This document shows positions 5,446 through 19,411 of a DNA stretch of 27,738 nucleotides, in pieces. The position numbers were made by a program, and so were the translations under genes. This DNA is from a virus. The notes beneath the pieces were generated by a model that was given only the letters and a program-made list of their open reading frames with translations, was not told where the DNA came from and ran no database searches. Where the stretch lies: IMG/VR virus record IMGVR_UViG_3300028925_009492, positions 1 to 27,738 of that record. One strand, 5' to 3'. Position 1 is the first letter of the stretch, and each line of letters begins with the position of its first letter.

Positions 5446-6278
5446 GACTCACCAACCATAAACCGAGCCAGTTTAGACTTCTTGGCTACAGCAGCGGCGT
5501 GACCCGGATGCTGCTTGTCCAACCAAGCGTCCATAAACTCTTTATTACCGTTCAGTGCAACCATCTCTTCTTGCGCGGTAGCGGGTGTCATTGCGCCTGA
5601 GAGATGCGACTGACCTGTTATAACAATATCATCGCCCAATTGCGAACTTAACCTATCGACAAACTTCATGGCCTCTACTGGACCCATCGTAGCGCGTAAA
5701 CCTTCGAGGTTAGCATCTGACAGACCTAGCTGCGATGCTGCGGCGTTTATGCCGTCGACCTTCTGGTCAAATGCAGCGCCCCATTCTTTACGAAGGTCAG
5801 TCTCTGCGTCAACCGCTGATATCGTCTCTACGTCTTGTGCCGCTTGTCCTCTAGCTTGACCATACTCTGCCCACTGGGCTGTGAGATGGTCTGCTTGTTT
5901 CTGTGTAAGCCCTGCGTCGTGGAAGGTCTTACCCGCCCAGTTAGCAAAATCTCCGTCGTCACCCTCTGGAATTGGGATGCCGTATGAGTCTGCGTCTTCT
6001 GGTCTCCCTAACTTCGTATAAAACTCGTTCCTATCTGAATCTGAAGCGTCATCTCCTAGCAGTGTTACTGTCCGGCCCGCTTTGTCTGCACCCATTAGCT
6101 GTTCTAGGTTTCGGTAACTTCCGAGTACGTTCTCTACAGTGCCGTTTTGTAGACCTTTACTTTCGGCCCATGACCTTGTGTCTGTACTCTCTACTGAATC
6201 TATCCAAGATGACTTTGTGGCTTGTCCTTCCGGGGCCGTTTCCGCTTGTCCTTCCGGGGCGGTTGCTTCTTCGCTCAT
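5442..6278 (-). CDS. Scaffolding (capsid assembly) protein
   Basis: This 278-residue, acidic, Ala/Gln/Glu-rich protein lies between portal and capsid genes. The N-terminus is low-complexity, with an EGQA segment occurring twice near residues 9-20. The middle is helical (QKQADHLTAQWAEYGQA) and the C-terminus is short and basic (AKKSKLARFMVG), as expected for scaffolds that bind the capsid inner surface through a basic helical tail. AAGGA precedes the ATG. The role is to template procapsid assembly and then leave. The assignment is from synteny and composition. Confidence 0.82.
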   Translation of the reverse strand: MSEEATAPEGQAETAPEGQATKSSWIDSVESTDTRSWAESKGLQNGTVENVLGSYRNLEQLMGADKAGRTVTLLGDDASDSDRNEFYTKLGRPEDADSYGIPIPEGDDGDFANWAGKTFHDAGLTQKQADHLTAQWAEYGQARGQAAQDVETISAVDAETDLRKEWGAAFDQKVDGINAAASQLGLSDANLEGLRATMGPVEAMKFVDRLSSQLGDDIVITGQSHLSGAMTPATAQEEMVALNGNKEFMDAWLDKQHPGHAAAVAKKSKLARFMVGES

Positions 6279-8900: not shown

Positions 8901-10430
8901 TTATGAAAAAACATCGTAGTCCATATCTGTCGCAACCCTACCCCGCCGCCTTCTCATAGTCAAGTTATCTTTACGACTTACCGTCCTGCTGAACGTCGTC
9001 GCCAGCGCGTCTGCCCAATCAGGCGATGCGTAGCCCCGCTTCTTCATCTTGTCCTTAGGCTCCAGCTTGAGCTGCCCCTTGAGGCTGTACTCATACATCG
9101 GCGCACACAGGTCCTCAACCAAGTCCTTCTCGTTCGGCAGCGAGCCTGTCCCGATCCAGTCCCTCATCCGCCCCCACAGCTCCACACGGTGGTTAGCGTA
9201 CATCTCCTTGTCCTGAGCCCCGCCCCCAACCTTAACCTCTATAACCTTATACCCTGTTGCCTTCAACAGATCAGCCACACCGCCCCCAACGCCGTCACCC
9301 TCTATGAACACAGCATCAGGGTTGTAGCGATCTATTGCCCTAGCGCAGTGCTCAGCAAGCTCTACGATGGAGCACTTATCATAACCCTCAAACGCTATTG
9401 ACCTAGCATCTCTGCCCTGTCGGAAGGCCAGCACAGCCTTATCATTCCCGAACCTTGCAGGATCAACGCCCATTAGAAGAGGTGCGCCCGTGTCAGGGTG
9501 TAACTCTCTGTCCATAGCTATCTCTACGTCTCCCCTACCGATGAACTGGTAGTCGCCTTGGCGTGGGAACTGGCCGTATACCTCGACTCTAGCCTGATCG
9601 CTGTCTTCTCCATACTGCCGTATGATGTTGTTGTACAGCGTCTGGTCATTCTCCACGACTGTGCGCGCGTCAATGTTCTGACTGTTCCAAGCAGCACGGT
9701 TGCCGTGGAAGCACTCGAAGAACTCACCGCTAGGGTTACGTGGATTGCTGATGGCGATCCAGAACCTGTGCACTGTCTTGTCTGTGAAGTAGCCTTGCGT
9801 CACTGGCCATATACAAGATGCTATGCCGGATGCCTCGTCGAACAGCACAGCCATGCCGCGTTGGCTATGCACACCAGCGAATGCATCGGGGGACTCCTCG
9901 GACCACAGCCGCGCCTGTATGTACCAGTAGGCCGAGTCAAACTGCGTCGTCTTCTTGAGGCTGTCCACCAGCCAGTCAGCTGGACGCAGGGACATAGCGT
10001 TATGCTCGAACCAACGTGAGTTGATTGACATGGTTGCCCACTTGCGTATCTCAGGGAACGTGGTGGATTTGAGCTGCTGCTCGGTATTCGCGCTGACGAT
10101 GACCGTACTGGCCGGTATGGTACTGAACAGCCAGATGGCCACCCAAGCCAAGAACGCTGATTTACCTATGCCGCGCCCAGATGCGCGTGCCATCTGCATC
10201 AGCTCAGGGTCGATGTCGTTGGCGACCCTACTGCGGTTGGCAACAATATGGTCCCTTATCTCTGTAAGCGCCTGTATCTGCCATTCTCTGGGTTTATCGA
10301 AATTCTCAAGCGGGCCACCCGGTACGCCCCAAGGGAAGGCGAACATCACAAACGCCAACGGATCGTCGGCAAGCTCCAGTATCTTAAGGATAAGTTGTTG
10401 TTCTTGTGCAGCTGGTTGTACTTTCGGCAT
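8901..10430 (-). CDS. terL: Terminase large subunit
   Basis: 509 residues, the usual length for a TerL packaging motor. The ATPase domain shows Walker A GRGIGKS (about residue 84) and Walker B MAVLFDEAS (about residue 193). The C-terminal RNase H-like nuclease shows GVDPARFGNDKAV (first Asp), FIEGDGVGGGVADLL and SPDWADALA. All motif positions look intact, so packaging activity is expected. It uses the portal as docking site and the small subunit for DNA recognition. The ribosome binding site before the ATG is weak (A/T-rich with GAAAG). A 139-bp G/C-rich gap separates it from the gene upstream. Confidence 0.95.
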   Translation of the reverse strand: MPKVQPAAQEQQLILKILELADDPLAFVMFAFPWGVPGGPLENFDKPREWQIQALTEIRDHIVANRSRVANDIDPELMQMARASGRGIGKSAFLAWVAIWLFSTIPASTVIVSANTEQQLKSTTFPEIRKWATMSINSRWFEHNAMSLRPADWLVDSLKKTTQFDSAYWYIQARLWSEESPDAFAGVHSQRGMAVLFDEASGIASCIWPVTQGYFTDKTVHRFWIAISNPRNPSGEFFECFHGNRAAWNSQNIDARTVVENDQTLYNNIIRQYGEDSDQARVEVYGQFPRQGDYQFIGRGDVEIAMDRELHPDTGAPLLMGVDPARFGNDKAVLAFRQGRDARSIAFEGYDKCSIVELAEHCARAIDRYNPDAVFIEGDGVGGGVADLLKATGYKVIEVKVGGGAQDKEMYANHRVELWGRMRDWIGTGSLPNEKDLVEDLCAPMYEYSLKGQLKLEPKDKMKKRGYASPDWADALATTFSRTVSRKDNLTMRRRRGRVATDMDYDVFS

Positions 10431-10569
10431 AAAAAACTTTCAAAAAATATTTAAATAAACTGTCCGGGTCAGGTCCATATCCCATGCGCCAGCCTCAGGC
10501 CTCGGGGTACCCCCGTGCCACCCCCCCGGTCTAGGCTAAGTCATTGAAACCTAACACCCTTCCAGCTTT
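10431..10569. other. Intergenic region between small-terminase candidate and terL, with palindrome
   Basis: There is no gene here. It holds a 10-bp palindrome GGGGTACCCC (10504-10513), G/C-rich tracts on each side, one copy of the TAAGTCATTGA motif (10537-10547) and, touching it, CCTAACACCCT (10550-10560). Just outside the terminase pair, this is a plausible packaging or regulatory site; nothing proves it. Confidence 0.5.
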
Positions 10570-10950
10570 TCAGCCCAATACCTCAAATCCATCATCATCA
10601 TCAGGTTCAAGCGTTTCAGGTGTTAGGGTGTCTGGCTCAGCTACGTGTTCGATGATAGGTCCAAGCGTCTCAGGTGTTAGGGTGTTAGTGGTGATGTCCT
10701 TCAGCCTGTTGCTTGCTTGCTCTAGTGCCAAGCCAAGGTCGACCACATTCACGTTAGCTGTCACGTCGATCGCCGATGGCATTACCTTCGCAACTAGCTG
10801 GATAAAGAGTGGTAGGGTTTTAGGGTCGTCAGCGAGAGACGCGAGCCACCTGCCTCCACCTTTGTGCCTAAATGCCCACTCAACCTCCTCGCGAATAGAC
10901 TTCATATCCTTGCGGTGTTTGAGTGGTGGCGGTGCGCCTCTTCGTGCCAT
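10570..10950 (-). CDS. Terminase small subunit candidate
   Basis: A 126-residue protein beginning with a basic MARRGAPPPLKHRKD segment, then helical REEVEWAFRHKGGGRWLAS and FIQLVAKVMPSAIDV, and ending in an acidic tail. The tail contains a duplicated TLTPETL-(G/E)-P element, encoded by copies of a sequence containing GGTGTTAGGG, and a run of Asp. It is the first gene of the late operon and lies directly upstream of terL, the standard place for the DNA-recognition subunit. The family is not recognised from motif alone, so the role rests on position. Confidence 0.6.
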   Translation of the reverse strand: MARRGAPPPLKHRKDMKSIREEVEWAFRHKGGGRWLASLADDPKTLPLFIQLVAKVMPSAIDVTANVNVVDLGLALEQASNRLKDITTNTLTPETLGPIIEHVAEPDTLTPETLEPDDDDGFEVLG

Positions 10951-11182
10951 GCTGCGTTACCTAAGTTGTTGAGCTGATTTATGATGCATTATCAATCAAG
11001 CCATAACAGTGCGGCAATACCTTATATATAGGCGCTATTTGAGGCACTCGCTGTAAGCCCCCGCCCAAGCCAAAAAGCCAACCTCTTCAATTAATGCATA
11101 ACCATGCCTCAGAACAGAGATACGCGCTGGTGGTGCCTCTGCGAGCGCTACAGACTATCGGTGCCAAATAAGGGCCCTAATG

Positions 11183-11347
11183 TTTCCGCCATTGTGCTCA
11201 CTGAGTGGCTTAAAACCGCGATCAATAAAGTGTGTAAGTCATTGATATCCCTGCACAAAATAGGCGTTTTACAACTTCCCAAGAGACTGAATGTGCCCCA
11301 AATCCAGCGTTTCAGCACACCGACATCGGCAGTTTTCCGCCATTGTG
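11183..11347 (+). repeat. Direct repeat pair TTTCCGCCATTGTG
   Basis: The 14-bp sequence occurs at 11183-11196 and 11334-11347, 151 bp apart, both in the same orientation inside the divergent control region. Placed upstream of the candidate early promoter, the pair could be a regulator binding site that loops DNA. The exact match is directly seen; the role is inferred. Confidence 0.6.
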
Positions 11348-11367
11348 AGATTAGTTTTACATGACAC

Positions 11368-11396
11368 TTGATAACCGATAATAAATACCCCATATT
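11368..11396 (+). promoter_or_regulatory. Candidate rightward early promoter
   Basis: TTGATA (11368-11373) and CATATT (11391-11396) are separated by 17 bp, giving 5/6 and 4/6 matches to the sigma-70 consensus. Transcription would begin near 11403, just before the structured leader. An overlapping alternative is TTTACA (11356-11361) with GATAAT (11377-11382), at a shorter 15-bp spacing. Confidence 0.4.
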
Positions 11397-11419
11397 ATGG
11401 TCAAGGCCACACCGGCTGC

Positions 11420-11519
11420 CCCGTTAAAAAACGGGAAACCTCAGCCCAGCTGAGTAACCCGCTTCCTGCCTCGCCGAGTAGAGATGGAAGCGCCTCACAA
11501 ACATAGAGGCATCAAGCGG
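11420..11519 (+). ncRNA. Structured early-operon leader RNA upstream of the ribozyme
   Basis: Several stems can be drawn: CCCGTT-AAAA-AACGGG (11420-11435); CTCAGC-CCA-GCTGAG (11440-11454), which can be extended by an outer CGGG/CCCG pair; GCTTCC/GGAAGC enclosing about 19 nt (11461-11501); and GCCTC/GAGGC around a 9-nt loop. The density of short perfect stems in about 100 nt suggests functional RNA. GTAACC at 11454-11459 can also pair with GGTTAC at 11531-11536, which would break stem I of the ribozyme and might regulate it. Family unknown. Confidence 0.5.
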
Positions 11520-11578
11520 ATATAGTCTGAGGTTACAAACCTCACTGATGAGACATAACAATGCCGAAACTAACAACC
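11518..11578 (+). ncRNA. Type III hammerhead ribozyme (self-cleaving)
   Basis: All conserved core parts are present in the right order. The cleavage triplet GUC is at 11525-11527. Stem I (11528-11534 with 11538-11544) has seven Watson-Crick pairs and an ACA loop. CUGAUGA lies at 11545-11551. Stem II (11552-11556 with 11561-11565) begins with the canonical G-C pair, has one A-C mismatch and an AACA loop. GAAA lies at 11566-11569. Stem III forms from UAGU (11523-11526) with ACUA (11569-11572) and may be extended by GG/CC further out. Stem III is open-ended, which makes it type III. Cleavage after C11527 would leave the early mRNA with a 5' hairpin about 65 nt before the first start codon. Hammerheads are known in phage genomes; the structure here is read by hand. 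Confidence 0.82.
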
Positions 11579-11591
11579 AAGGAATAGCCTG

Positions 11592-11681
11592 ATGAAACAC
11601 ATCCCTATATTTGCTGCCTACGCAATCGCCGGAACATCGGCTGTCGGTTACTACTTCATCTTCTCTATGTTAGCGTCATGA
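11592..11681 (+). CDS. 29-residue single-helix membrane peptide, first early gene
   Basis: The ATG at 11592 has AAGGAATAG upstream. The 29-residue frame begins MKHIPIFAAYAIAGTSAVGY and is hydrophobic through to the end, with a basic start, so one membrane helix is likely. Its stop overlaps the next start (ATGA at 11678-11681). It is the first gene after the hammerhead ribozyme. No family is recognised; it is likely real because of the coupling and ribosome binding site. Confidence 0.6.
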   Translation: MKHIPIFAAYAIAGTSAVGYYFIFSMLAS

Positions 11682-11926
11682 TCAAATACACCAAGCGCCC
11701 AAACATTGAGACGCTTCGCAGACGTTGCCGGGATGACAGAGACATCATCAACACCATCCGTCACGAATATACCAACTACAGCAAGGTTCAAGACGCTGTG
11801 TACGCCAGTGAGGACGCTGTGGCGATATTCCGCACGTTTTTCCACAGTGTTGTTGCACTGGACAAGAACCTCGGTTCTGAGGCTGCTGCCCAGTTCGGAA
11901 ACCATATCAAAGGATTAGCCAAATGA
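11678..11926 (+). CDS. Small early protein of unknown function, ends GLAK
   Basis: 82 residues, basic N-terminus (KRPNIETLRRRCRDDRD), otherwise helical. The C-terminal GLAK codons contain AAGGA, which is the ribosome binding site of the next gene, and the stop overlaps its start (ATGA). The same AAGGATTAGCCAAATGAT string ends the next gene as well. No known family. Confidence 0.75.
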   Translation: MIKYTKRPNIETLRRRCRDDRDIINTIRHEYTNYSKVQDAVYASEDAVAIFRTFFHSVVALDKNLGSEAAAQFGNHIKGLAK

Positions 11927-12156
11927 TTAGACCTGATATTACAGAGACCACGATCGCAGATTATGCTGAGTTAGATAACCAGTTGTTTCGTTTCCTCTTC
12001 ATATGCGATCTCTGCGAAGTGACTGTACCAGAGTTTGACAACGACACAGACGCTAGAGCGTTGGTCAACAGCACGGAGTATCACCTCAACTGCTGGTCTG
12101 GCACCCGATCGCACGATGGACAAGGTAACCGCATCAACGAAGGATTAGCCAAATGA
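11923..12156 (+). CDS. Small early protein of unknown function, ends GLAK
   Basis: 77 residues with a CDLC pair near residues 28-31 and a third Cys near 58. It is acidic overall. It begins by ATGA overlap with the previous gene and ends with the same 18-base string (12140-12157) as that gene. The two proteins are otherwise unrelated in sequence, so the shared end probably reflects selection on, or copying of, the ribosome binding site. Confidence 0.75.
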   Translation: MIRPDITETTIADYAELDNQLFRFLFICDLCEVTVPEFDNDTDARALVNSTEYHLNCWSGTRSHDGQGNRINEGLAK

Positions 12157-12356
12157 TCGCTCAAAACAAAGTCACCACCAACACCACACTGACCCTCAGC
12201 TACGACGAGCTGGACGATCTGACGCACGCAGTAAGCAAAGCAGTGTTTCACATGAAGAAAGAGCGGTTAACTTGCAGCGCTGGATTTGCTTCTGAGCTGC
12301 TTGATGTATTAGTAGCGGCTCAGGATGAAGCAAAGATAGTGGGAGCAGACAAATGA
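12153..12356 (+). CDS. Small early protein of unknown function
   Basis: A 67-residue, mostly helical, mixed-charge protein (YDELDDLTHAVSKAVFH; ELLDVLVAAQDEAK). It is coupled to both neighbours by ATGA overlaps (12153 and 12353). No family recognised. Confidence 0.75.
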   Translation: MIAQNKVTTNTTLTLSYDELDDLTHAVSKAVFHMKKERLTCSAGFASELLDVLVAAQDEAKIVGADK

Positions 12357-12679
12357 TGAAACCTACACAAGGCTGTTTTGCTAACCGTTGCGGATACACC
12401 GATGTTCACCCTTTCGAGGTCGTGAGGATCGTTTCTGATAAATGCATAGAGGTCCGCGCGATGGACACCAGCGACAATAAAACGAAGTTGGACTTCCACG
12501 TCGGCGGTTTTTCCGCTCACTGCTCAAATCAAAAGGATCAATCATACGACTTCACAAGCAACCCGGATAATCAAACCATAAAGGTCCGTCTGCACAAGGA
12601 TACATGGTGGCGCTCAAAACACGGTGAGCGGTTCTATATAGCAGAGGCACCACGCAAATTTCACGACTACAACTTCTGA
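12353..12679 (+). CDS. Conserved-type small phage protein of unknown function
   Basis: 108 residues. The pattern of YTDVHPFEVV near residues 15-24, a GFSAH segment, then an IKVRLHKDTWW segment and a C-terminal F-H-D-Y-N-F resembles a widespread small phage or plasmid protein family I cannot name. It is beta-rich in appearance. The ATG at 12353 overlaps the previous stop; a second ATG follows directly. Confidence 0.75.
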   Translation: MMKPTQGCFANRCGYTDVHPFEVVRIVSDKCIEVRAMDTSDNKTKLDFHVGGFSAHCSNQKDQSYDFTSNPDNQTIKVRLHKDTWWRSKHGERFYIAEAPRKFHDYNF

Positions 12680-12707
12680 TACCCAACCAACCAAGAGGAA
12701 CGGCAAT

Positions 12708-13016
12708 ATGATTAATGAAAACAAGCTCGACGAGATTGCAATGGATTACGCGATCGAAATACGGCGTGAAATTAAGGACCATGGTGGTGAAGAAACCGAG
12801 TTAGCGCACGAGTACGCTGACGGTTCTGAGTGGGCCATCTATTACCACAAAGCCCATGAGTTATGCCGCGAGTGTGATGTCACCAGCGGCGAAGACGGCT
12901 TGCGCGATGGAGGTGAGCCCCTCGCGGGATGGAGTTACGACACGATGGCAACGACTATTGCCTATTGGGAATTAAACACGCGCATTCTTTTGGCGCTTTC
13001 CGACATGGAGGATTGA
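12708..13016 (+). CDS. Acidic early protein of unknown function
   Basis: 102 residues, strongly acidic, starting MINENKLDEIAMDYAIEIRR with AGAGGA upstream. It contains YADGSEWAIYYHKAHELC near residue 36-53, a pattern common in hypothetical phage early proteins. The acidity would fit a DNA mimic, but there is no motif to support one. Confidence 0.75.
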   Translation: MINENKLDEIAMDYAIEIRREIKDHGGEETELAHEYADGSEWAIYYHKAHELCRECDVTSGEDGLRDGGEPLAGWSYDTMATTIAYWELNTRILLALSDMED

Positions 13017-13017
13017 T

Positions 13018-13242
13018 ATGGCTACTTGCTTAACGCTATCAGATGGAACGTGGTGCCTAGTAGAGCCCAAGCCCGACAACCCGCGCACGGATCACAGGGT
13101 CTTCCGGCATGGCAAGCACGGGGGTTACGACTGGGCGCACTACTCAGACGTGGATACTAACGGACCTAGAGCCCGTTGGTACGGTTGGGGGTCACCAGAA
13201 CTACCCGAAACAATGTTAGCAAATTCGGAGGCAGCGTCATGA
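13018..13242 (+). CDS. Small early protein of unknown function
   Basis: 74 residues, rich in Trp, His and Gly (GGYDWAHYSDVD; ARWYGWGSP), which suggests a small beta fold. GGAGG from the end of the previous gene forms its ribosome binding site. Its end overlaps the next start (ATGA). Confidence 0.72.
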   Translation: MATCLTLSDGTWCLVEPKPDNPRTDHRVFRHGKHGGYDWAHYSDVDTNGPRARWYGWGSPELPETMLANSEAAS

Positions 13243-13421
13243 TCGGTAACAAACAGGAATGGGCGGCGCAGTTCGTTAAAGCTGGCGCAAATTTAAACGC
13301 CGTCAATCGTGAATTAATATGCTGCGGGATACAAGCCAGCAACCCAGAAGAGGCTAGGGCTGTACGTAGTGAATTTATAAGACAAACGCTTGACGCTAAC
13401 GACGAGGGATTTACGATATGA
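13239..13421 (+). CDS. Small early protein of unknown function
   Basis: I chose ATG 13239, which overlaps the previous TGA, giving 60 residues beginning MIGNKQEWAAQFVKAGANLN. An upstream in-frame start is not needed. It is helical with a CC pair near residue 28 and ends by ATGA overlap with the next gene. No family recognised. Confidence 0.7.
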   Translation: MIGNKQEWAAQFVKAGANLNAVNRELICCGIQASNPEEARAVRSEFIRQTLDANDEGFTI

Positions 13422-13636
13422 AAACATTCAAAGCAACGAACTGCCTCCCCTACAGCGCGTGGTACGACTGGCAAGAAACAGGGTTTGACTTCAGAGTACG
13501 CAACCCAGACATGACGCTGGACCAAATCGCTACTGCTGCTGACCTGTTTGCAATGGATGCCGCTGGGTTGGGCGCGCATGACGGGGTTTATGCCGCACGG
13601 CGCAACGCCTTCATGGAGGGTGTGCACGATGCTTAA
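13418..13636 (+). CDS. Small early protein of unknown function
   Basis: 72 residues starting MKTFKATNCLPYSAWYDWQE. The start overlaps the previous stop. It has an aromatic N-terminal half and an Ala-rich helical C-terminal half. Its last codons carry GGAGG for the following gene, which starts 8 nt before this stop. Confidence 0.72.
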   Translation: MKTFKATNCLPYSAWYDWQETGFDFRVRNPDMTLDQIATAADLFAMDAAGLGAHDGVYAARRNAFMEGVHDA

Positions 13637-13877
13637 CTCAGAACCGAAATCATGGATGGAGTTGTCAATGTTCGATTATAAACCGACAAGCAAACGGTAC
13701 GCTAAGGCGGTCGCTCACTGGGTCCACCTGAATGATGAGGCGCAGCACATAGGCAGCGGACATCGGCGTGTGTGGGCTGTTGTGGGCCGCAAATGGGTGT
13801 ACTTAGCCAACCGCGAGGACCGTCAGCGTATCAGGGTCTCAACATGGAACGAAATATTGAAGAAAGAAATCAAATGA
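13629..13877 (+). CDS. Small early protein of unknown function
   Basis: 82 residues from ATG 13629 (GGAGG 9 nt upstream). It is basic and contains KPTSKRYAKAVAHWVHL and WAVVGRKWVYLANREDRQRI, a basic, aromatic pattern that could bind nucleic acid, though no named domain is seen. The frame overlaps the previous gene by 8 nt and the next by ATGA. Confidence 0.7.
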   Translation: MLNSEPKSWMELSMFDYKPTSKRYAKAVAHWVHLNDEAQHIGSGHRRVWAVVGRKWVYLANREDRQRIRVSTWNEILKKEIK

Positions 13878-14149
13878 AGATAATCACCATCGAGAAATCG
13901 GCGATCGATCGGTTCTGTAAATCATGGCCTTGTCACGGTTTTCCTGACGATCTCGATTTGATCGTATTTGCGACAAGCAACAACGGCGATCTAGTGGACC
14001 TTGAACTGTGCGATGATCGGGATAATGTAATCACATGGAGCATGACGAGCGGCGCAATGTTAGCACTACTTGATGATGCAGAAGAGAATGCAATTAGTCA
14101 GCCCATGCCGCCGGGTTGCTTGCCAATCCATTACGTTTTAACCGTATAA
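13874..14149 (+). CDS. Conserved-type small phage protein of unknown function
   Basis: 91 residues, starting MKIITIEKSAIDRFCKSWPC. The IEK.A.DRF...WPCHG.PD arrangement followed by NGDLVDLEL is one I associate with small hypothetical phage proteins; no function is known. The ATGA overlap with the previous gene supports the start; a longer in-frame version beginning at 13772 is rejected. Confidence 0.72.
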   Translation: MKIITIEKSAIDRFCKSWPCHGFPDDLDLIVFATSNNGDLVDLELCDDRDNVITWSMTSGAMLALLDDAEENAISQPMPPGCLPIHYVLTV

Positions 14150-14165
14150 CCAAGGAAACAATCAA

Positions 14166-14276
14166 ATGAAAACAGCACTAGACACGATAGCATTCGTCGC
14201 GATCCTATGTGGCATGGTCACGCTATTGACATTTGCAGCGGCATTCACTGATATAATAATGCCACTGATGAGTTAA
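14166..14276 (+). CDS. 36-residue membrane peptide
   Basis: AAGGA precedes ATG 14166. The frame starts MKTALDTIAFVAILCGMVTL and continues hydrophobic, giving one or two short membrane helices. It is the first of a run of small membrane-protein genes to 14952. Function unknown. Confidence 0.6.
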   Translation: MKTALDTIAFVAILCGMVTLLTFAAAFTDIIMPLMS

Positions 14277-14350
14277 GTTATTTAAATAGGTGCGCTGGGT
14301 TGGGGGGATCAGCGTACTCATTTTGAACAACTTGATCTAAGGTAAAGACA

Positions 14351-14587
14351 ATGGATAAAGACAGGCTTTCTTGGCTCAGTAAATGGGGCGGCACGATATG
14401 TACATGCTTAGCGGTATCACTACGATCGTTTGAGGGTATGCTAGGGCCCGATTTAATACTCTCAGTCATGGGGGTACTACTGTGGGCATATACTGCGATA
14501 CATACGAAGGACACGGCGCTGCTGGTGATCAACCTTGTGGTGCTGGGTTTACTACTTGGCGGGATGTACCGCTTTTTCTTAATTTAA
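14351..14587 (+). CDS. Small membrane protein, two to three helices
   Basis: 78 residues. Hydrophobic segments are seen near residues 15-24, 34-50 (LILSVMGVLLWAYTAI) and 57-72 (LLVINLVVLGLLLGG). The start MDKDRLSWLSKWGG is charged. AAGG lies upstream. No family recognised; a holin-like or host-membrane role is only possible. Confidence 0.68.
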   Translation: MDKDRLSWLSKWGGTICTCLAVSLRSFEGMLGPDLILSVMGVLLWAYTAIHTKDTALLVINLVVLGLLLGGMYRFFLI

Positions 14588-14597
14588 AGGAATTGAT

Positions 14598-14693
14598 ATG
14601 AATACAAACATCGTAATGTTGTTGCTGTCGTTGCTTTGCGTAGCGGTCGCGACTGGCATAGTATACTTGATAGTGGGAGGGGTTGTGATATGA
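14598..14693 (+). CDS. 31-residue single-helix membrane peptide
   Basis: The ATG at 14598 has AAAGGAATTGAT upstream. The whole peptide is hydrophobic apart from the first four residues. The stop overlaps the start of the next peptide (ATGA). Function unknown. Confidence 0.6.
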   Translation: MNTNIVMLLLSLLCVAVATGIVYLIVGGVVI

Positions 14694-14782
14694 AGGACCC
14701 AGTAATTCAATTTCTTGCGGTGTGCGCGATTGGCGTCCTACTATCCATATGCATCTCGCTATTCTGGGGCATACTATCATGA
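14690..14782 (+). CDS. 30-residue single-helix membrane peptide
   Basis: MKDPVIQFLAVCAIGVLLSI then SLFWGILS; one membrane helix with charged start. GGGAGGGG upstream is a ribosome binding site inside the previous gene. Both ends are ATGA overlaps. Confidence 0.6.
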   Translation: MKDPVIQFLAVCAIGVLLSICISLFWGILS

Positions 14783-14952
14783 GCGACCACACAAAAGCCT
14801 TTTGGTTGGGTTTCCTGTGCGTGCTAGGGTTCGTGTTCGTCCTTATCGGGCTCATATACGTGGTGCCGGGGTTGCTTCCCGCTAGTTGGGCCATCCCTGA
14901 CCCCGTGTATGACACACACTGGACGATCGGTTTACCCGGACAAATCAACTAA
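14779..14952 (+). CDS. 57-residue membrane protein with exported-like tail
   Basis: The start at 14779 overlaps the previous stop. MSDHTKAFWLGFLCVLGFVF leads into one long hydrophobic segment (residues about 8-34), then a polar, Pro-rich tail of about 25 residues. A longer frame from 14722 is rejected because it lacks coupling. Function unknown. Confidence 0.62.
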   Translation: MSDHTKAFWLGFLCVLGFVFVLIGLIYVVPGLLPASWAIPDPVYDTHWTIGLPGQIN

Positions 14953-14963
14953 TGGAGTAGAAA

Positions 14964-15353
14964 ATGATTGGACTAGAGATAAGTGACTTTGATAAGATAC
15001 CGCTTTTTCACTTTGTGGACGTCGCTCGCGAGATAGGGTTGGCGGCAAGTTACGACGATCGAGACGCTGATGAGGGTATCATGGACGTAGCCGTAGAGAA
15101 CTGGGTTACATTAGATGATACGATGACCTCGTTCCGCGTGTTCAAGCTGGGTCAGAAATGGGAACGGGGTGCAGAACAACGCTGGATTTTCCAATTGTAC
15201 ATTGCGGACGCCGAGGGTGATAACCTCACCGATCGCGGTTGCGTTTGGGGAAGCAGTAACATGGAAGGGTTGACCCTAGCTGTTCAGGAAGTGGACAACA
15301 GGTTTACCGGAATGACATACACATTAGAGGAAGCAGTAAATGCGAGAGTTTAG
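14964..15353 (+). CDS. Early protein of unknown function
   Basis: 129 residues, acidic, with MIGLEISDFDKIPLFHFVDV at the start and a Trp-containing centre (QRWIFQLYIAD). GGAG lies 7 nt before the ATG. Its last 14 nt overlap the HTH gene that follows. No motif identified. Confidence 0.7.
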   Translation: MIGLEISDFDKIPLFHFVDVAREIGLAASYDDRDADEGIMDVAVENWVTLDDTMTSFRVFKLGQKWERGAEQRWIFQLYIADAEGDNLTDRGCVWGSSNMEGLTLAVQEVDNRFTGMTYTLEEAVNARV

Positions 15354-15579
15354 AAAAAGACATAAATTAACACAAAAAAAGTTGGCGCGGTTGCTTCATA
15401 TGAGCGAAATTGGTGTTCGCGTCTCTGAAAAAAGAGGCACAATTCCAAAACCGATGAGACTTTTGTTAGTCGTGCTGACACCGACGCTGGATAAACTAGG
15501 GTTCGAAAAGACCAAAAATCTGCTCGATAGCGCAATAATAGAACAAAAAAGCTCTGTAACCCGCAGAAAACTGCGGTGA
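15340..15579 (+). CDS. Small Xre/Cro-like helix-turn-helix DNA-binding protein
   Basis: 79 residues. REFRKRHKLTQKKLARLLHM (residues 2-21) followed by SEIGVRVSEKRG gives the HTH_3 pattern: Q12 starts helix 2, with the recognition helix in the second segment. The basic C-terminus extends it. It is the last gene before a repeat-rich non-coding region, so it may bind the repeats there or act as an early repressor. The TGA stop lies inside the first TGAGGGA repeat. Confidence is good for HTH, low for target. Confidence 0.8.
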   Translation: MREFRKRHKLTQKKLARLLHMSEIGVRVSEKRGTIPKPMRLLLVVLTPTLDKLGFEKTKNLLDSAIIEQKSSVTRRKLR

Positions 15580-15624
15580 GGGACAGAAAAAGGGTATCCC
15601 TCAGAGATTTCCTCTGTAACCCGC
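15552..15624 (+). repeat. Direct repeat CTCTGTAACCCGC (60-bp period)
   Basis: The 13-mer is at 15552-15564 and 15612-15624, exactly 60 bp apart. The first copy lies in the end of the HTH gene and is part of a CCGCAG-AAAA-CTGCGG hairpin (15561-15576). Confidence 0.7.
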
Positions 15625-15900
15625 TGTTTTCCTCGATTGTCCAGCTGAGGGACTGAGGGACGGCTCTATATCTTTTCCCTGAGATTACATATGTATAAAT
15701 AGCTGTACTACTCCATAGAAACCCTTATATTGTCACTCACGCACTCAGAGACGAAATACGGCGGAAATACAGGCGGTACAGAAGGACAAAATCGGTAGCT
15801 TTGAGGGACTGAGGGAAATTCACTTTTTACCCAACGATTTCAATGACTTATTTTGGGTGTTTTTGGACGATTGCACTCAGCTAATGATTTCAATGACTTA
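15577..15900 (+). repeat. Iteron-like cluster in 390-bp non-coding region; candidate replication origin
   Basis: No gene is seen between 15580 and 15970. TGAGGGA occurs at 15577, 15646, 15654, 15802 and 15810, with one inverted copy (TCCCTCA, 15597-15603). GATTTCAATGACTTA occurs at 15836-15850 and 15886-15900, exactly 50 bp apart. The segment about 15660-15740 is AT-rich. Repeats, an AT-rich stretch and location between an HTH gene and the replication genes fit an origin, but also a multi-site operator. No DnaA box was identified. Confidence 0.6.
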
Positions 15901-15970
15901 AAGAAAATGGATTTGTCAACCCCTAATTTACTAATTCGGGTAATTCTGCTCGATAAAACCGGAGAAAAAC

Positions 15971-16054
15971 ATGGACGAAGAATGTACGTGCAAATGCAAC
16001 GCAGAAGAATGCGAATGTGAAGAGTGCAGCTGCGAGAAATGCGGCTGTAAATAA
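15971..16054 (+). CDS. Metallothionein-like Cys-rich microprotein (27 residues)
   Basis: The ATG at 15971 follows GGAGAAAAAC, a good ribosome binding site. Nine of 27 residues are Cys, at positions 5, 7, 9, 14, 16, 19, 21, 24 and 26. The pattern is C-x-C-x-C-x4-C-x-C-x2-C-x-C-x2-C-x-C, spaced by Glu, Lys and Ser with no aromatics or aliphatics except one Ala. This is the composition and spacing of metallothioneins, which chelate Zn, Cd or Cu in thiolate clusters. It lies alone between the repeat region and a palindrome-flanked promoter. It is shorter than usual bacterial members, so it may bind only two to four ions. The coding call rests on the ribosome binding site and the Cys pattern. Confidence 0.72.
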   Translation: MDEECTCKCNAEECECEECSCEKCGCK

Positions 16055-16055
16055 A

Positions 16056-16114
16056 CCTAACACCCTAATAGCCCAACACCGTACAAGCGTATAATCGTAC
16101 AGATCGGTGTTGGG
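16056..16114 (+). promoter_or_regulatory. Operator-like palindrome around a -10 box
   Basis: CCCAACACCG (16072-16081) and CGGTGTTGGG (16105-16114) are perfect 10-bp inverted arms around a consensus TATAAT (16090-16095). A related CCTAACACC lies at 16056-16064, 16 bp before the first arm. There is no good -35, which fits an activator- or repressor-controlled promoter for the genes from 16133 on. The same half-site sequence recurs elsewhere in the window. The site could also form an RNA hairpin with a 23-nt loop, but there is no U-run, so it is not a terminator. Confidence 0.6.
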
Positions 16115-16132
16115 TGTACTTTGGAGAGTAAA

Positions 16133-16354
16133 ATGGATCGTAACTATTTATCATACGGCTCTGACCGTATCGACGACGCAGACTTACTTAAAATAGAGGC
16201 AGACTTAGACGACATGACGGCAATATGCCAAGAGCTGCAATTCTTGCGGCACAGTGACGATGAGTTACGCGAAGAGCTCGACGCGCTGCATAAAGAGGTG
16301 CAGCTCTTGTTTGATAGTTTGGAGGGAACGCTGTCGTTCAAGTTAGATGGCTGA
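16133..16354 (+). CDS. Acidic coiled-coil protein of unknown function
   Basis: 73 residues from ATG 16133 with GGAG 6 nt upstream. A TTG 12 nt upstream overlaps the ribosome binding site and is rejected. It is rich in Asp, Glu and Leu with heptad-like spacing over residues 17-65, so one or two long helices are likely. It is the first gene behind the palindromic promoter and overlaps the DUF3310 gene by 8 nt. Confidence 0.7.
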   Translation: MDRNYLSYGSDRIDDADLLKIEADLDDMTAICQELQFLRHSDDELREELDALHKEVQLLFDSLEGTLSFKLDG

Positions 16355-16691
16355 GTGCGAGTATTGCCATGGGAACCATTACTATCGGTTCCGTGACGAG
16401 ACGGTCCCTTGTGGCTACTGCGCGGGTAGTAGTACCTTCTCAGGTCAATACGACGACGGCTACAGTCCCGACGACGACGGCTACAGTCCCGACGACGACG
16501 TCAACCACCCTGAGCACTATAACTTGGGACAGGAGCCGTTCCCGTTCATTGAGAGCTGGGGCATGTCGTTTGCTGAGGGCTGCGTCATTAAGTACGTGGT
16601 GCGTCACAAGCATAAGGGCGGGCTAAAGGACCTAAAGAAGGCAGCGTGGTACTTGAACAAGCTGATTGAGAGCTATGATGACGAGACGTGA
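16347..16691 (+). CDS. DUF3310 protein with N-terminal zinc ribbon
   Basis: 114 residues. Residues 1-25 hold two CxxC pairs (C4, C7 and C22, C25), a zinc-ribbon pattern. Residues 38-51 are a duplicated GYSPDDD encoded by a 21-bp tandem repeat. From residue 52, VNHPEHYN, then FIESWGMSFAEGCVIKYVVR and LKDLKKAAWYLNKLIES match DUF3310, a common phage early family with no proven activity (it has been called nucleotide-kinase-like). The zinc ribbon joined by a repeat linker is the odd part. Confidence 0.85.
   Translation: MAECEYCHGNHYYRFRDETVPCGYCAGSSTFSGQYDDGYSPDDDGYSPDDDVNHPEHYNLGQEPFPFIESWGMSFAEGCVIKYVVRHKHKGGLKDLKKAAWYLNKLIESYDDET
16452..16499 (+). repeat. 21-bp tandem repeat in the DUF3310 gene
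   Basis: Two full copies (16452-16472 and 16473-16493) plus six matching bases. It encodes the acidic (GYSPDDD)2 linker. Such in-frame repeats can change copy number by slippage without breaking the frame. Confidence 0.85.
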
Positions 16692-17121: not shown

Positions 17122-17243
17122 AAAAGTCGAATATAATTGAAATAAAAATATTCTTAGCTGCTGGTGTACCTCAAACAGTGCTGGCAGAACTATTTAACAC
17201 CAGCAAAACAGCTATCAATAGAATAGCAGTAAGGATGAAATGA
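17118..17243 (+). CDS. 41-residue stand-alone helix-turn-helix protein
   Basis: IKIFLAAGVPQTVLAELFNT followed by SKTAINRIAVRMK gives a resolvase/Hin-type HTH (A-G-V-x-x-x-x-L-A-x-x-F-x-x-S-x-x-x-I-x-x-I) with nothing else. It is coupled by ATGA at both ends, directly upstream of the primase-helicase gene. A lone HTH of this size may be a DNA-site recognition subunit for the next protein or a small regulator. Both are inference. Confidence 0.62.
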   Translation: MKKSNIIEIKIFLAAGVPQTVLAELFNTSKTAINRIAVRMK

Positions 17244-19411
17244 TCGACCATACAGAGTTCCTATCGACATTGTTTCCAACCCTAACACCCTCAGAGCATG
17301 TCAGCGTCACCGAGATACCCAAAGGGGGTTTCATAACGGACGCGCTGGCTACGGGTAAGGATTTCTCATCTTGGGACCCTGAAACCCCAAGAGCCATGTA
17401 CTTCTGCGTGTCGACGACGAACGGTAAGAGCCGGACCCGTGACAATCTGGTACGGTCTCACGTCCTGATGTTGGACGACATAGGCGACAAGACAGCAGAG
17501 CCGGGGGTAGAGCCGACTTATAAGCTCGAGACGTCCCCCGGCTCTTTCCACTGGGGCTACAACCTAGTTCCTACAGCTGACGTCACAAGGTTCGAGGCGT
17601 TGGTGGAGATAATCACGAAGGACTTAGGCTTCGGGGACAAGGGTGCCGGCGGTTCGTACCGTCTCGCACGTTTGCCGGGAAGCACCAACGTCAAGGATGG
17701 CAAGAACAACTTCAAATCAGTCATAACAGACTGGCACCCTGACAGGGTGTGGGAGTTGGACGAGTTAGCCTCTGAGTTTGGCGTGGACCTGAATAACGTC
17801 AAGACGAAACGCAAGCCAGTGTCTCGCGTAGAGACTAAGGACAACATCGACCCCTTGCTCGACTGGCTGAGCGCAGACAATCGCGTCATCTCAGACGGCG
17901 GTGAGTGGGTTGAGGTGGCGTGCCCTTGGGCATCGACGCACACTGACGGCAGTACGGCAGCAGGGTATAGCCCGCTAGGCCGAGGTGCCGAGGGTAACGT
18001 CGACAGCCGGGGGTTCAATTGCTTCCATGAGCACTGTAAGACGAAGAACATAGGCGATTACATCACTTGGGCCAAAAGTGTGGGCGGTCCTGACGTGACG
18101 GGCTACGATCCACTGCCATGGTTGCAGGAACGCTACGCATATCTTGGGATGGACGAGAAAGTGGTTGACTTACACCAGCGTAAACTCGGTGGAAGCGATT
18201 GGTTGTGGGATTTGAGGGCTTGGGGGCGGCGTCATCCCGGATATATAGAGAAAATCCGGGTTGCGGACGCCTTTGTGGCCTCTCATGACACAAAACACGC
18301 CGATTTCATGTCATATGTGCCCGTGAAACGTGAAGAAGACACAGGAATGGTGAAAGTATACAGTCAAACGGCAGTAAATGTGTACGTCCCGCCAAATTGG
18401 GACGAAATCGACGACCTTCCTGAGGTTTTCATCGAACATATGGAATACCTGATACCTGACACCCTAGAACGCGAGCTCTTTGTAGATTGGTTGGCTTATA
18501 AATTCCAAAATCCTGACCGGCGGTCGTATGCCATGCTAATGGTGGCCGATCGGGCGTTTGGTATAGGCCGATCGTGGATTAAAACGATGTTAGCTGCTAC
18601 GTTACAGTCGTCAGTCAACACAGCGACCTTAGGACAGCTAATCGGGCGTGGTACGTCCGCTGAGCAGTCCTATAATGACTGGCAATCCAGAACGCAGTTC
18701 ATTTGCATAGAGGAAGCAAGGGAAAGTACCGACAAAGACGTGTTCTACCAAGCATATGAGACGTTCAAGACTAACGTCGACCCTGCTGTGGGCGTTGGAA
18801 TACGTATTAACCCGAAATATGGCAAAACTAGGACCGAGAATATCTACTATAACGCCCTGATTTTCTCAAATCATAAGGACGCCATAGCAATACCGGCAAA
18901 TGATCGTAGAATATGCGTAATTAAGAACCCTACGACCATGGAGAGCTCGAGCTACTACGAAAGATTGGCTCGATCGATCACGTCCGGCGAGCCCCAACGC
19001 ATCTACTGGTATTTAATGCGCCGGGATGTGTCGGGTTTCGACAATATCATTCCCCCGATGACACCGGGTAAGCAAGACATGATATCCGCTAACGTCATGC
19101 CATCCGATGAAATCTGGAGTTTGATCGAAAATCAGCTGCCTGATCTGGTAACTAAGATCACCCTACAGGACGCCGTGGTGAGTGGTGCCGCCCAATTACG
19201 CATGGACGGCATAGCAAACAAGCCTCGGGCTGTGGCGGCTGCTCTATGGGCCGATATACCCCCATTGAGGGACGAGAAGAACGGCGCTCGATACCGTGTC
19301 GGGCCATCTAACTCGCAAGCTGAGCTTAAGGCGGTGAGAAACGTCGAAGAGTGGACGAAAAAGGACGACGAGAGAAGTAGAGAAGTAATGGTTGTGGGCA
19401 TGTCCCGTTAG
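17240..19411 (+). CDS. Primase-helicase fusion (AEP-like primase plus DUF5906-type helicase)
   Basis: 723 residues. N-terminal AEP-like part: LMLDDIGDK (DD at 79-80), SPGSFHWGYNL (99-109; active-site His) and GGSYRLARLPGSTN (137-150) fit archaeo-eukaryotic primase motifs. A zinc-binding insert follows (C228, C261, H263, C266). The C-terminal third is a superfamily 3-type helicase: a P-loop-like AFGIGRSW at 439-446 with Arg444 where Lys is usual, acidic FICIEEA (487-493), and FSNHKDAI...RR (542-557) as sensor/Arg-finger region. It would make primers and unwind the fork. The K-to-R change may reduce or alter ATPase activity; similar degenerate loops occur in phage relatives. Confidence 0.82.
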   Translation: MIDHTEFLSTLFPTLTPSEHVSVTEIPKGGFITDALATGKDFSSWDPETPRAMYFCVSTTNGKSRTRDNLVRSHVLMLDDIGDKTAEPGVEPTYKLETSPGSFHWGYNLVPTADVTRFEALVEIITKDLGFGDKGAGGSYRLARLPGSTNVKDGKNNFKSVITDWHPDRVWELDELASEFGVDLNNVKTKRKPVSRVETKDNIDPLLDWLSADNRVISDGGEWVEVACPWASTHTDGSTAAGYSPLGRGAEGNVDSRGFNCFHEHCKTKNIGDYITWAKSVGGPDVTGYDPLPWLQERYAYLGMDEKVVDLHQRKLGGSDWLWDLRAWGRRHPGYIEKIRVADAFVASHDTKHADFMSYVPVKREEDTGMVKVYSQTAVNVYVPPNWDEIDDLPEVFIEHMEYLIPDTLERELFVDWLAYKFQNPDRRSYAMLMVADRAFGIGRSWIKTMLAATLQSSVNTATLGQLIGRGTSAEQSYNDWQSRTQFICIEEARESTDKDVFYQAYETFKTNVDPAVGVGIRINPKYGKTRTENIYYNALIFSNHKDAIAIPANDRRICVIKNPTTMESSSYYERLARSITSGEPQRIYWYLMRRDVSGFDNIIPPMTPGKQDMISANVMPSDEIWSLIENQLPDLVTKITLQDAVVSGAAQLRMDGIANKPRAVAAALWADIPPLRDEKNGARYRVGPSNSQAELKAVRNVEEWTKKDDERSREVMVVGMSR

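Follow-up and report, generated by a model that had tools for sequence, protein, structure and literature searches.

A short word repeated in the non-coding regions of an uncultivated phage, read as predicted boxes for a host DNA-bending protein

Why would a phage carry the same eleven-base word four times, and only in the DNA between its genes? The question is raised by IMG/VR record IMGVR_UViG_3300028925_009492, a viral fragment of 27,738 bases, the whole of which is the window analysed here. In this window, the terminase genes (terS and terL) and the structural genes run leftward, early and replication genes run rightward, and the word TAAGTCATTGA stands at 10537-10547 (+), 11235-11245 (+), 15840-15850 (-) and 15890-15900 (-), with no further exact copy in the 27,738-base record. 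All four copies lie in non-coding DNA (10431-10569, 10951-11677 and 15580-15972), which under a hand-picked gene model amounts to 2,007 of the 27,738 bases (7.2%). Integration host factor (IHF) is a bacterial host protein that bends DNA, and the answer that we consider reasonably probable, judging from sequence, is that the four copies are predicted boxes for the host's IHF or a close DNABII relative, with WTCAATGRCTTA as the preferred subtype.

The word is exceptional for this DNA. It is the sole 11-mer with four non-overlapping copies in the window, and any 11-mer at four or more copies arose in 1 of 200 simulations under an order-3 Markov model of the window. Three copies extend to TAAGTCATTGAAA, and those at 15840 and 15890 are identical at 17 of 18 bases with a spacing of 50 bp. 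An initial inspection of the letters by themselves (the sequence-only reading) had reported the four copies and their confinement to non-coding DNA, their rarity, the longer form of three of them and the longer identity of the last two, and exact searches, the gene model and the simulations bear out each of these claims. Related words behave differently: the 9-mer AAGTCATTG has a fifth occurrence, at 2134, inside coding DNA, and matches to TAAGTCATTGA with up to two mismatches number 9 against a shuffle mean of 7.3. This is no enrichment, so the signal resides in the exact word. Four mechanical open reading frames (ORFs) overlap or adjoin the copies, namely two of 86 and 81 amino acids over 11235, one of 142 amino acids antisense to terS from 10544, and one of 55 amino acids with a TTG start from 15853, near the pair. 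All were classed as spurious; the 86-residue ORF, the only one of the four searched, had no relative in viral contigs.

Read on the opposite strand, TAAGTCATTGA becomes TCAATGACTTA, the core of the sequence WATCAANNNNTTR that passages of PMC7581858 and PMC4585315 quote as the IHF consensus. Each of the four copies is TWTCAATGACTTA on the strand that reads toward the next gene, and its core, TCAA-TGAC-TTA, shares its frame with WATCAANNNNTTR. The best combination of core and flank belongs to the box at 11235-11247 (-), TATCAATGACTTA, which reads toward terS from the divergent control region, matches WATCAANNNNTTR in full and carries TTTT at -15 to -12 (flank percentile 0.993). In the candidate origin, the first box of the pair, TTTCAATGACTTA at 15838-15850 (+), has TTTTT at -16 to -12 (percentile 0.975), and the second, at 15888-15900 (+), follows in the same orientation 50 bp away (percentile 0.956). 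The box in the terS-terL gap, at 10537-10549 (-), is again TTTCAATGACTTA, reads toward terL 20 bp past the terS stop, and has one mismatch to WATCAANNNNTTR and a weak flank (percentile 0.915). A T tract at about -16 to -12 is thus present in two of the four, 11235 and 15838. At each box IHF would be expected to bind and to introduce a sharp bend. By PF00216, no DNABII protein is encoded in the window, so under this reading of the fragment the host's own protein would be required.

The paired word recurs in other viruses. Viral contigs were scanned for two like-oriented TCAATGRCTTA words separated by 25-55 bp. The totals are lower bounds: at least 120 stretches came back, from which 98 distinct loci were kept after 22 were dropped for having a pair segment of equal length and more than 85% identity to a kept one. 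A scrambled-centre control returned 11 stretches from the same viral collection; six of these have an equal 65-base span and are therefore probably one family. The exact A-centre pair was found in 39 stretches of genome contigs, several of which appear by eye to be tandem arrays. The genes around the 98 loci are very different from locus to locus, and in 90 of the 98 the overlap of the pair with non-overlapping ORFs of at least 100 amino acids is below 30%, that is, the pair is non-coding. Short repeats accompany it: in 38 of the 98 loci the masked pair has next to it a 7-mer at three or more copies, as have 12 of 213 mostly coding stretches drawn at random from those loci, and a comparison with non-coding controls, made with the motif unmasked, gave 40 of 98 against 1 of 95. 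Together with the consensus sites found upstream of terL (see below), these results uphold the sequence-only reading in so far as it named protein-binding, replication or packaging sites. Among nearest neighbours, taken as mechanical ORFs and in small counts, the 81 downstream ORFs include 4 with Prim-Pol, 6 with AAA_25 and 3 with Terminase_2, and the 82 upstream ORFs include 2 with Terminase_2; none of the three is among the 25 families listed, out of 26, for 62 distant ORFs, which do include one T4-type DNA_Packaging and one DNA_pol_A. A search of full-text literature, with most subscription journals outside its reach and the hits judged by title, turned up no account of the word, nor of paired IHF boxes with a TGRC centre.

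Across this family the word tolerates change where an IHF site does. Single-mismatch copies within 400 bp of the pairs (98 loci) have 7, 13, 21 and 4 changes at the four central bases, the 21 mostly reflecting the R of the search pattern, against 1, 0, 0 and 1 at TCAA and 0, 0 and 0 at TTA. The search pattern itself imposed the centre, and for this reason the pair was masked and TGRC centres were excluded in the enrichment test. WATCAA-N4-TTA still occurred 50 times near the pairs, in 33 of the 98 loci, where the distant DNA of those loci predicts 4.4 occurrences, an 11-fold excess. Other spacers gave 1.6-fold (N3), 0.8-fold (N5) and 0.4-fold (N6), altered ends 2.6-fold (TTG) and 1.3-fold (TTC and TTT), and altered cores 0.5- to 2.0-fold. 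The flank of the viral family is A-rich at -16 to -12, with G scarce at -14 to -12, and C-rich at -9/-8. In the record of lambda attP, the TCAATTTGTTG site, which is unnamed there and which we take to be H', has AAAAAA at -16 to -11.

A free centre, a fixed spacer and an A-tract are separate features of an IHF site; the free centre with the fixed 4-base spacer was seen across the 98 viral loci rather than within the window. As in the IHF sites of lambda attP, E. coli oriC and bacterial chromosomes, the viral word has the TCAA-N4-TTA frame, the fixed 4-base spacer and a location in non-coding control regions, and the AT-rich tract 11-16 bp upstream is likewise found in the viral family. It differs from those sites in its strong preference for a TGRC centre, in the one consensus base at which three of the four window copies are off, and in its same-orientation pairs 36-66 bp apart, a range fixed by the search pattern.

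Several observations weigh against an IHF assignment. Only the 11235 copy matches WATCAANNNNTTR in full; the other three begin TTTCAA, with T for A at consensus position 2, and in the viral set TCAA is preceded by A in 78% and by T in 21%. PMC8407004 gives the consensus as WATCARnnnnTTR and, for one of four E. coli datasets obtained in vivo, as WWTCARSnnnTTA; all four window copies fit the latter except at S, where they have T and not G or C. In that source, the first central base is G or C in two of the four in vivo consensuses and C in a third; the window copies and most viral sites have T there. The window flanks score 4.3, 1.4, 0.0 and -1.9 against a viral-family median of 8.65 that was computed on the training set, and the AT tract is absent from the 10537 copy. 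Neither strand of the window holds the DnaA box TTATNCACA, weaker boxes not being sought. A further point is the TGRC centre, preferred in at least 120 stretches against the 11 of the scrambled control, and TGAC alone occupies 39 of 110 non-ascertained WTCAANNNNTTA sites near pairs. IHF alone leaves this centre unexplained: either the hosts' IHF favours it, or a second factor reads it.

The word was also counted in bacterial chromosomes, and its excess in gamma- and alphaproteobacteria, with little in Bacteroidia, speaks for IHF. In sets that each include a genome picked for holding a pair (G016, G004 or G005, with 5, 5 and 1 matches), and with reversed-control totals summed by hand from tables, WATCAATGRCTTA occurs 79 times in 56 gammaproteobacterial genomes against 13 for the reversed control, 30 times in 58 alphaproteobacterial genomes against 5, and 66 times in 60 Bacteroidia genomes against 45. 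With the centre scrambled, the Bacteroidia count is 47 against 36 and the gammaproteobacterial count 23 against 14, and the little enrichment in the latter counts as a further point against IHF as the sole reader. Eleven of 20 inspected gammaproteobacterial hits, hand-chosen from A-centre hits, lie outside ORFs of at least 100 amino acids. The Parabeggiatoa genome (G002) holds 95 copies against 1 reversed; it belongs to a set of 16 genomes, all picked because they hold a pair, which without it have 86 against 13. Marine Beggiatoaceae are described in part of PMC4679880 as carrying TAACTGA repeats, which are likewise short intergenic direct repeats; they are a different word, and a possible post-transcriptional role is proposed for them there.

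These counts feed the strongest rival explanation, in which another conserved proteobacterial factor reads the whole of TCAATGRCTTA at phage origins and control regions. The preferred centre in viruses and in gammaproteobacteria speaks for it, as do the E. coli in vivo consensuses, which favour G or C where the word has T (PMC8407004, in part). The 11-fold enrichment of WATCAA-N4-TTA near pairs, obtained with non-TGRC centres and at the 4-base spacer only, speaks against it, and so does the A-tract position, which fits lambda attP. We know of no factor that recognises the whole word, and on balance consider this explanation unlikely. A bolder proposal is that TCAATGRCTTA is a dedicated cis-element shared widely among phages, read either by IHF, for which the TGRC centre would make a high-performance box, or by an unrecognised DNA-binding factor of proteobacteria. 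We hold it tentatively, as a possibility rather than an expectation; if true, a dedicated element used in pairs would let many different phages couple the firing of the origin, packaging and the control of early and late genes to a single protein of the host.

A phage regulator could also be the reader, the copies then being its operators over early, late and replication genes. The sequence-only reading had named three such binders, a 79-residue helix-turn-helix (HTH) protein, a 41-residue HTH protein and a GcrA-like protein. The copies do sit in the control regions of this phage, and the gene of the 79-residue protein (15340-15579), which has a weak HTH_3 match below the cut-off, ends about 260 bp ahead of the pair. 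These candidates are nonetheless unsupported: the word stands in 98 distinct viral loci amid very different genes, it is enriched in proteobacterial chromosomes, and it tolerates change at the positions where a site of the host's IHF does. The 79-residue protein has no detectable relative in viral contigs, and its operator was rejected on this ground. Operators of a phage regulator are therefore improbable.

A promoter or leader element is more improbable again. All four window copies read TCAATGACTTA toward the next gene, and some viral copies are preceded by TATAAA-like stretches. In the viral loci, however, the orientation of the word to neighbouring ORFs, which are mechanical, is near random (the strand is shared with 36 of 81 downstream neighbours and 35 of 82 upstream ones, or with 35 of 86 and 39 of 82 when non-overlapping ORFs are used), and a scan of 10400-16200 for sigma-70 promoter-like sites gave 9 against 8.4 in shuffles, none of them at the four boxes. 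An RNA element at the boxes was rejected as well, no Rfam match being found there, as was a tRNA. For the pairs, this near-random orientation makes the unusual promoter entertained by the sequence-only reading unlikely.

Arm-type sites of a tyrosine integrase, or other recombination sites, are scarcely credible in the window: direct repeats tens of base pairs apart do resemble attP arms, and the gap of relatives holds a dif-like site near an IHF consensus, but integrase domains occur in 2 of 82 upstream neighbours and are absent from the 25 families listed, of 29, in 81 downstream neighbours, no integrase is among the 17 distinct window proteins scanned, and no dif-like match with up to two mismatches lies in the non-coding regions of the window.

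The promoter, integrase-arm and phage-repressor explanations are thus less likely than boxes for IHF, and under the IHF reading each of the three places can be given a prospective role. At the candidate origin, an iteron-like array of six TGAGGGA repeats within 15577-15816 (15577, 15597 in reverse complement, 15646, 15654, 15802 and 15810) lies just upstream of the pair; the whole window has 11 copies, and these six fall in the non-coding region. A primase-helicase gene (17240-19411, +) encodes RepB_primase and DUF5906 domains. Because it stands beside the six repeats and 1.3 kb ahead of this gene, the pair is probably part of a candidate replication origin, the probable user of which is the RepB_primase/DUF5906 protein. 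The AT content of 15801-16000 is 62%; elsewhere in 10401-16400, 200-bp windows range from 42% to 58%. The boxes, beside the repeats, would help the initiator, probably that same protein, to build and open the origin. IHF assists the chromosome origin and several plasmid origins, according to part of PMC4980987, and the iteron origins treated there (pSC101, R6K and P1 plasmids) likewise have repeats beside IHF-type boxes and a replication gene nearby. They differ from the window in that its probable initiator is a primase-helicase and not a plasmid Rep, in that its origin is a candidate, and in that it has two identical boxes in tandem without the DnaA box sought. A search with the primase found 4 loci at 31-47% identity, without any exact copy of the motif, and one with the DNA polymerase found no relative. 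Directly after the box pair, a tiny Cys-rich, metallothionein-like ORF was noted by eye at 15973-16055 (+; MDEECTCKCNAEECECEECSCEKCGCK).

In the terminase gap, the 10537 box lies between terL (8901-10430, -) and a terS-like gene of 126 amino acids (10570-10950, -), which has no family match and was assigned by its position before terL and by the layout in relatives. Adjoining the box, a G-run element at 10504-10527 (GGGGGGGTGGCACGGGGGTACCCC on the - strand) is a candidate packaging signal, and 22 of 31 phages, counting the window, have its pattern upstream of terL. The relatives comprise 30 distinct loci with terL identity of at least 60%, of which 26 also have 420 bp upstream. Within these 420 bp, the full WATCAANNNNTTR occurs in 11 of the 26, against a shuffle mean of 0.43 and maximum of 3, a significance that the shuffles overstate because the relatives are akin to one another. 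TCAATGRCTTA itself occurs there in 4 of the 26, so that conservation in the intergenic DNA of relatives, the check proposed by the sequence-only reading, is obtained in part: the copies of L025 and L046 lie by eye within the terS 3' end. The IHF-consensus site overlaps the terS 3' end by eye in L016, L019, L020, L025, L031 and L046, so coding may contribute to the sites upstream of terL. In L027 and L039, the site is TATCAATGGCTTACA, past the terS stop and oriented as in the window. A look-alike in L084, CAATGACTCAC in three copies upstream of terL, is a different word and was not counted as support.

The 10537 box would shape the terS-terL DNA, where packaging may start or terL may be controlled. 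IHF bends lambda cosB between TerS sites, as a passage of PMC4856287 states, and by analogy the 10537 site and the G-run could form a packaging complex. Like the IHF site I1 of cosB, it is an IHF-type site near terminase genes and near a conserved, possible packaging element. It differs in standing between terS and terL, and the likeness, drawn from sequence, stops short of R boxes and cos cleavage.

Other sequences share this gap. In relatives, the G-run (GGGGGG..GGGGGTACCCC) is by eye followed in many by GGACCT and a TATTTTTT-like stretch, a possible cos or pac site; the G-run plus GGACCT pattern was seen in 39 viral stretches, partly checked. A dif-like, XerCD-type ATAA-N6-TTATGCG, called against what we take to be the dif consensus, lies in the gap of ten loci (L016, L018, L019, L020, L023, L025, L031, L046, L071 and L074), about 20-35 bp after the IHF consensus, and possibly serves Xer-mediated integration or resolution. 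The palindrome GTTTAAAC, absent from the window, has 6 to 18 copies per 11-22 kb in L022, L023, L034, L036, L037, L039 and L088, of which L034, L036 and L037 look like one phage; several copies stand in the gap. Just downstream of terL in L009, positions 5451-5523 give a near-threshold Rfam match to the SorX sRNA (44 bits, cut-off 46.6).

At the third place, the 11235 box would shape the divergent region of early and late control. Since the sigma-70 scan shows no excess, a regulatory role for this box is one that we infer. That 11104-11364 might be a mobile repeat carrying a genuine ORF was considered and rejected, no match being found in plasmids, phages or viral contigs. Further along, 11520-11575 (+), just upstream of the early genes, gives a below-threshold match to the Rfam type III hammerhead (31.8 bits, cut-off 48.5; E 0.0032 for the whole window), in which CUGAUGAG, the CGAAAC core and stem I are intact; none was found in the 10 relatives' loci searched.

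IHF sites in phage packaging sites and replication origins are already known. The present word offers eleven letters by which IHF-type control sites and probable origins can be searched for in uncultivated phages, whose origins are mostly unknown, and suggests that many such phages may rely at several stages on a single DNA-bending protein of the host. A second repeated word, CCTAACACC, stands in the window at 10550, 10619, 10673, 16056 and 17281; its first copy abuts the 10537 box, and the others lie in terS, past the candidate origin and in the primase gene.

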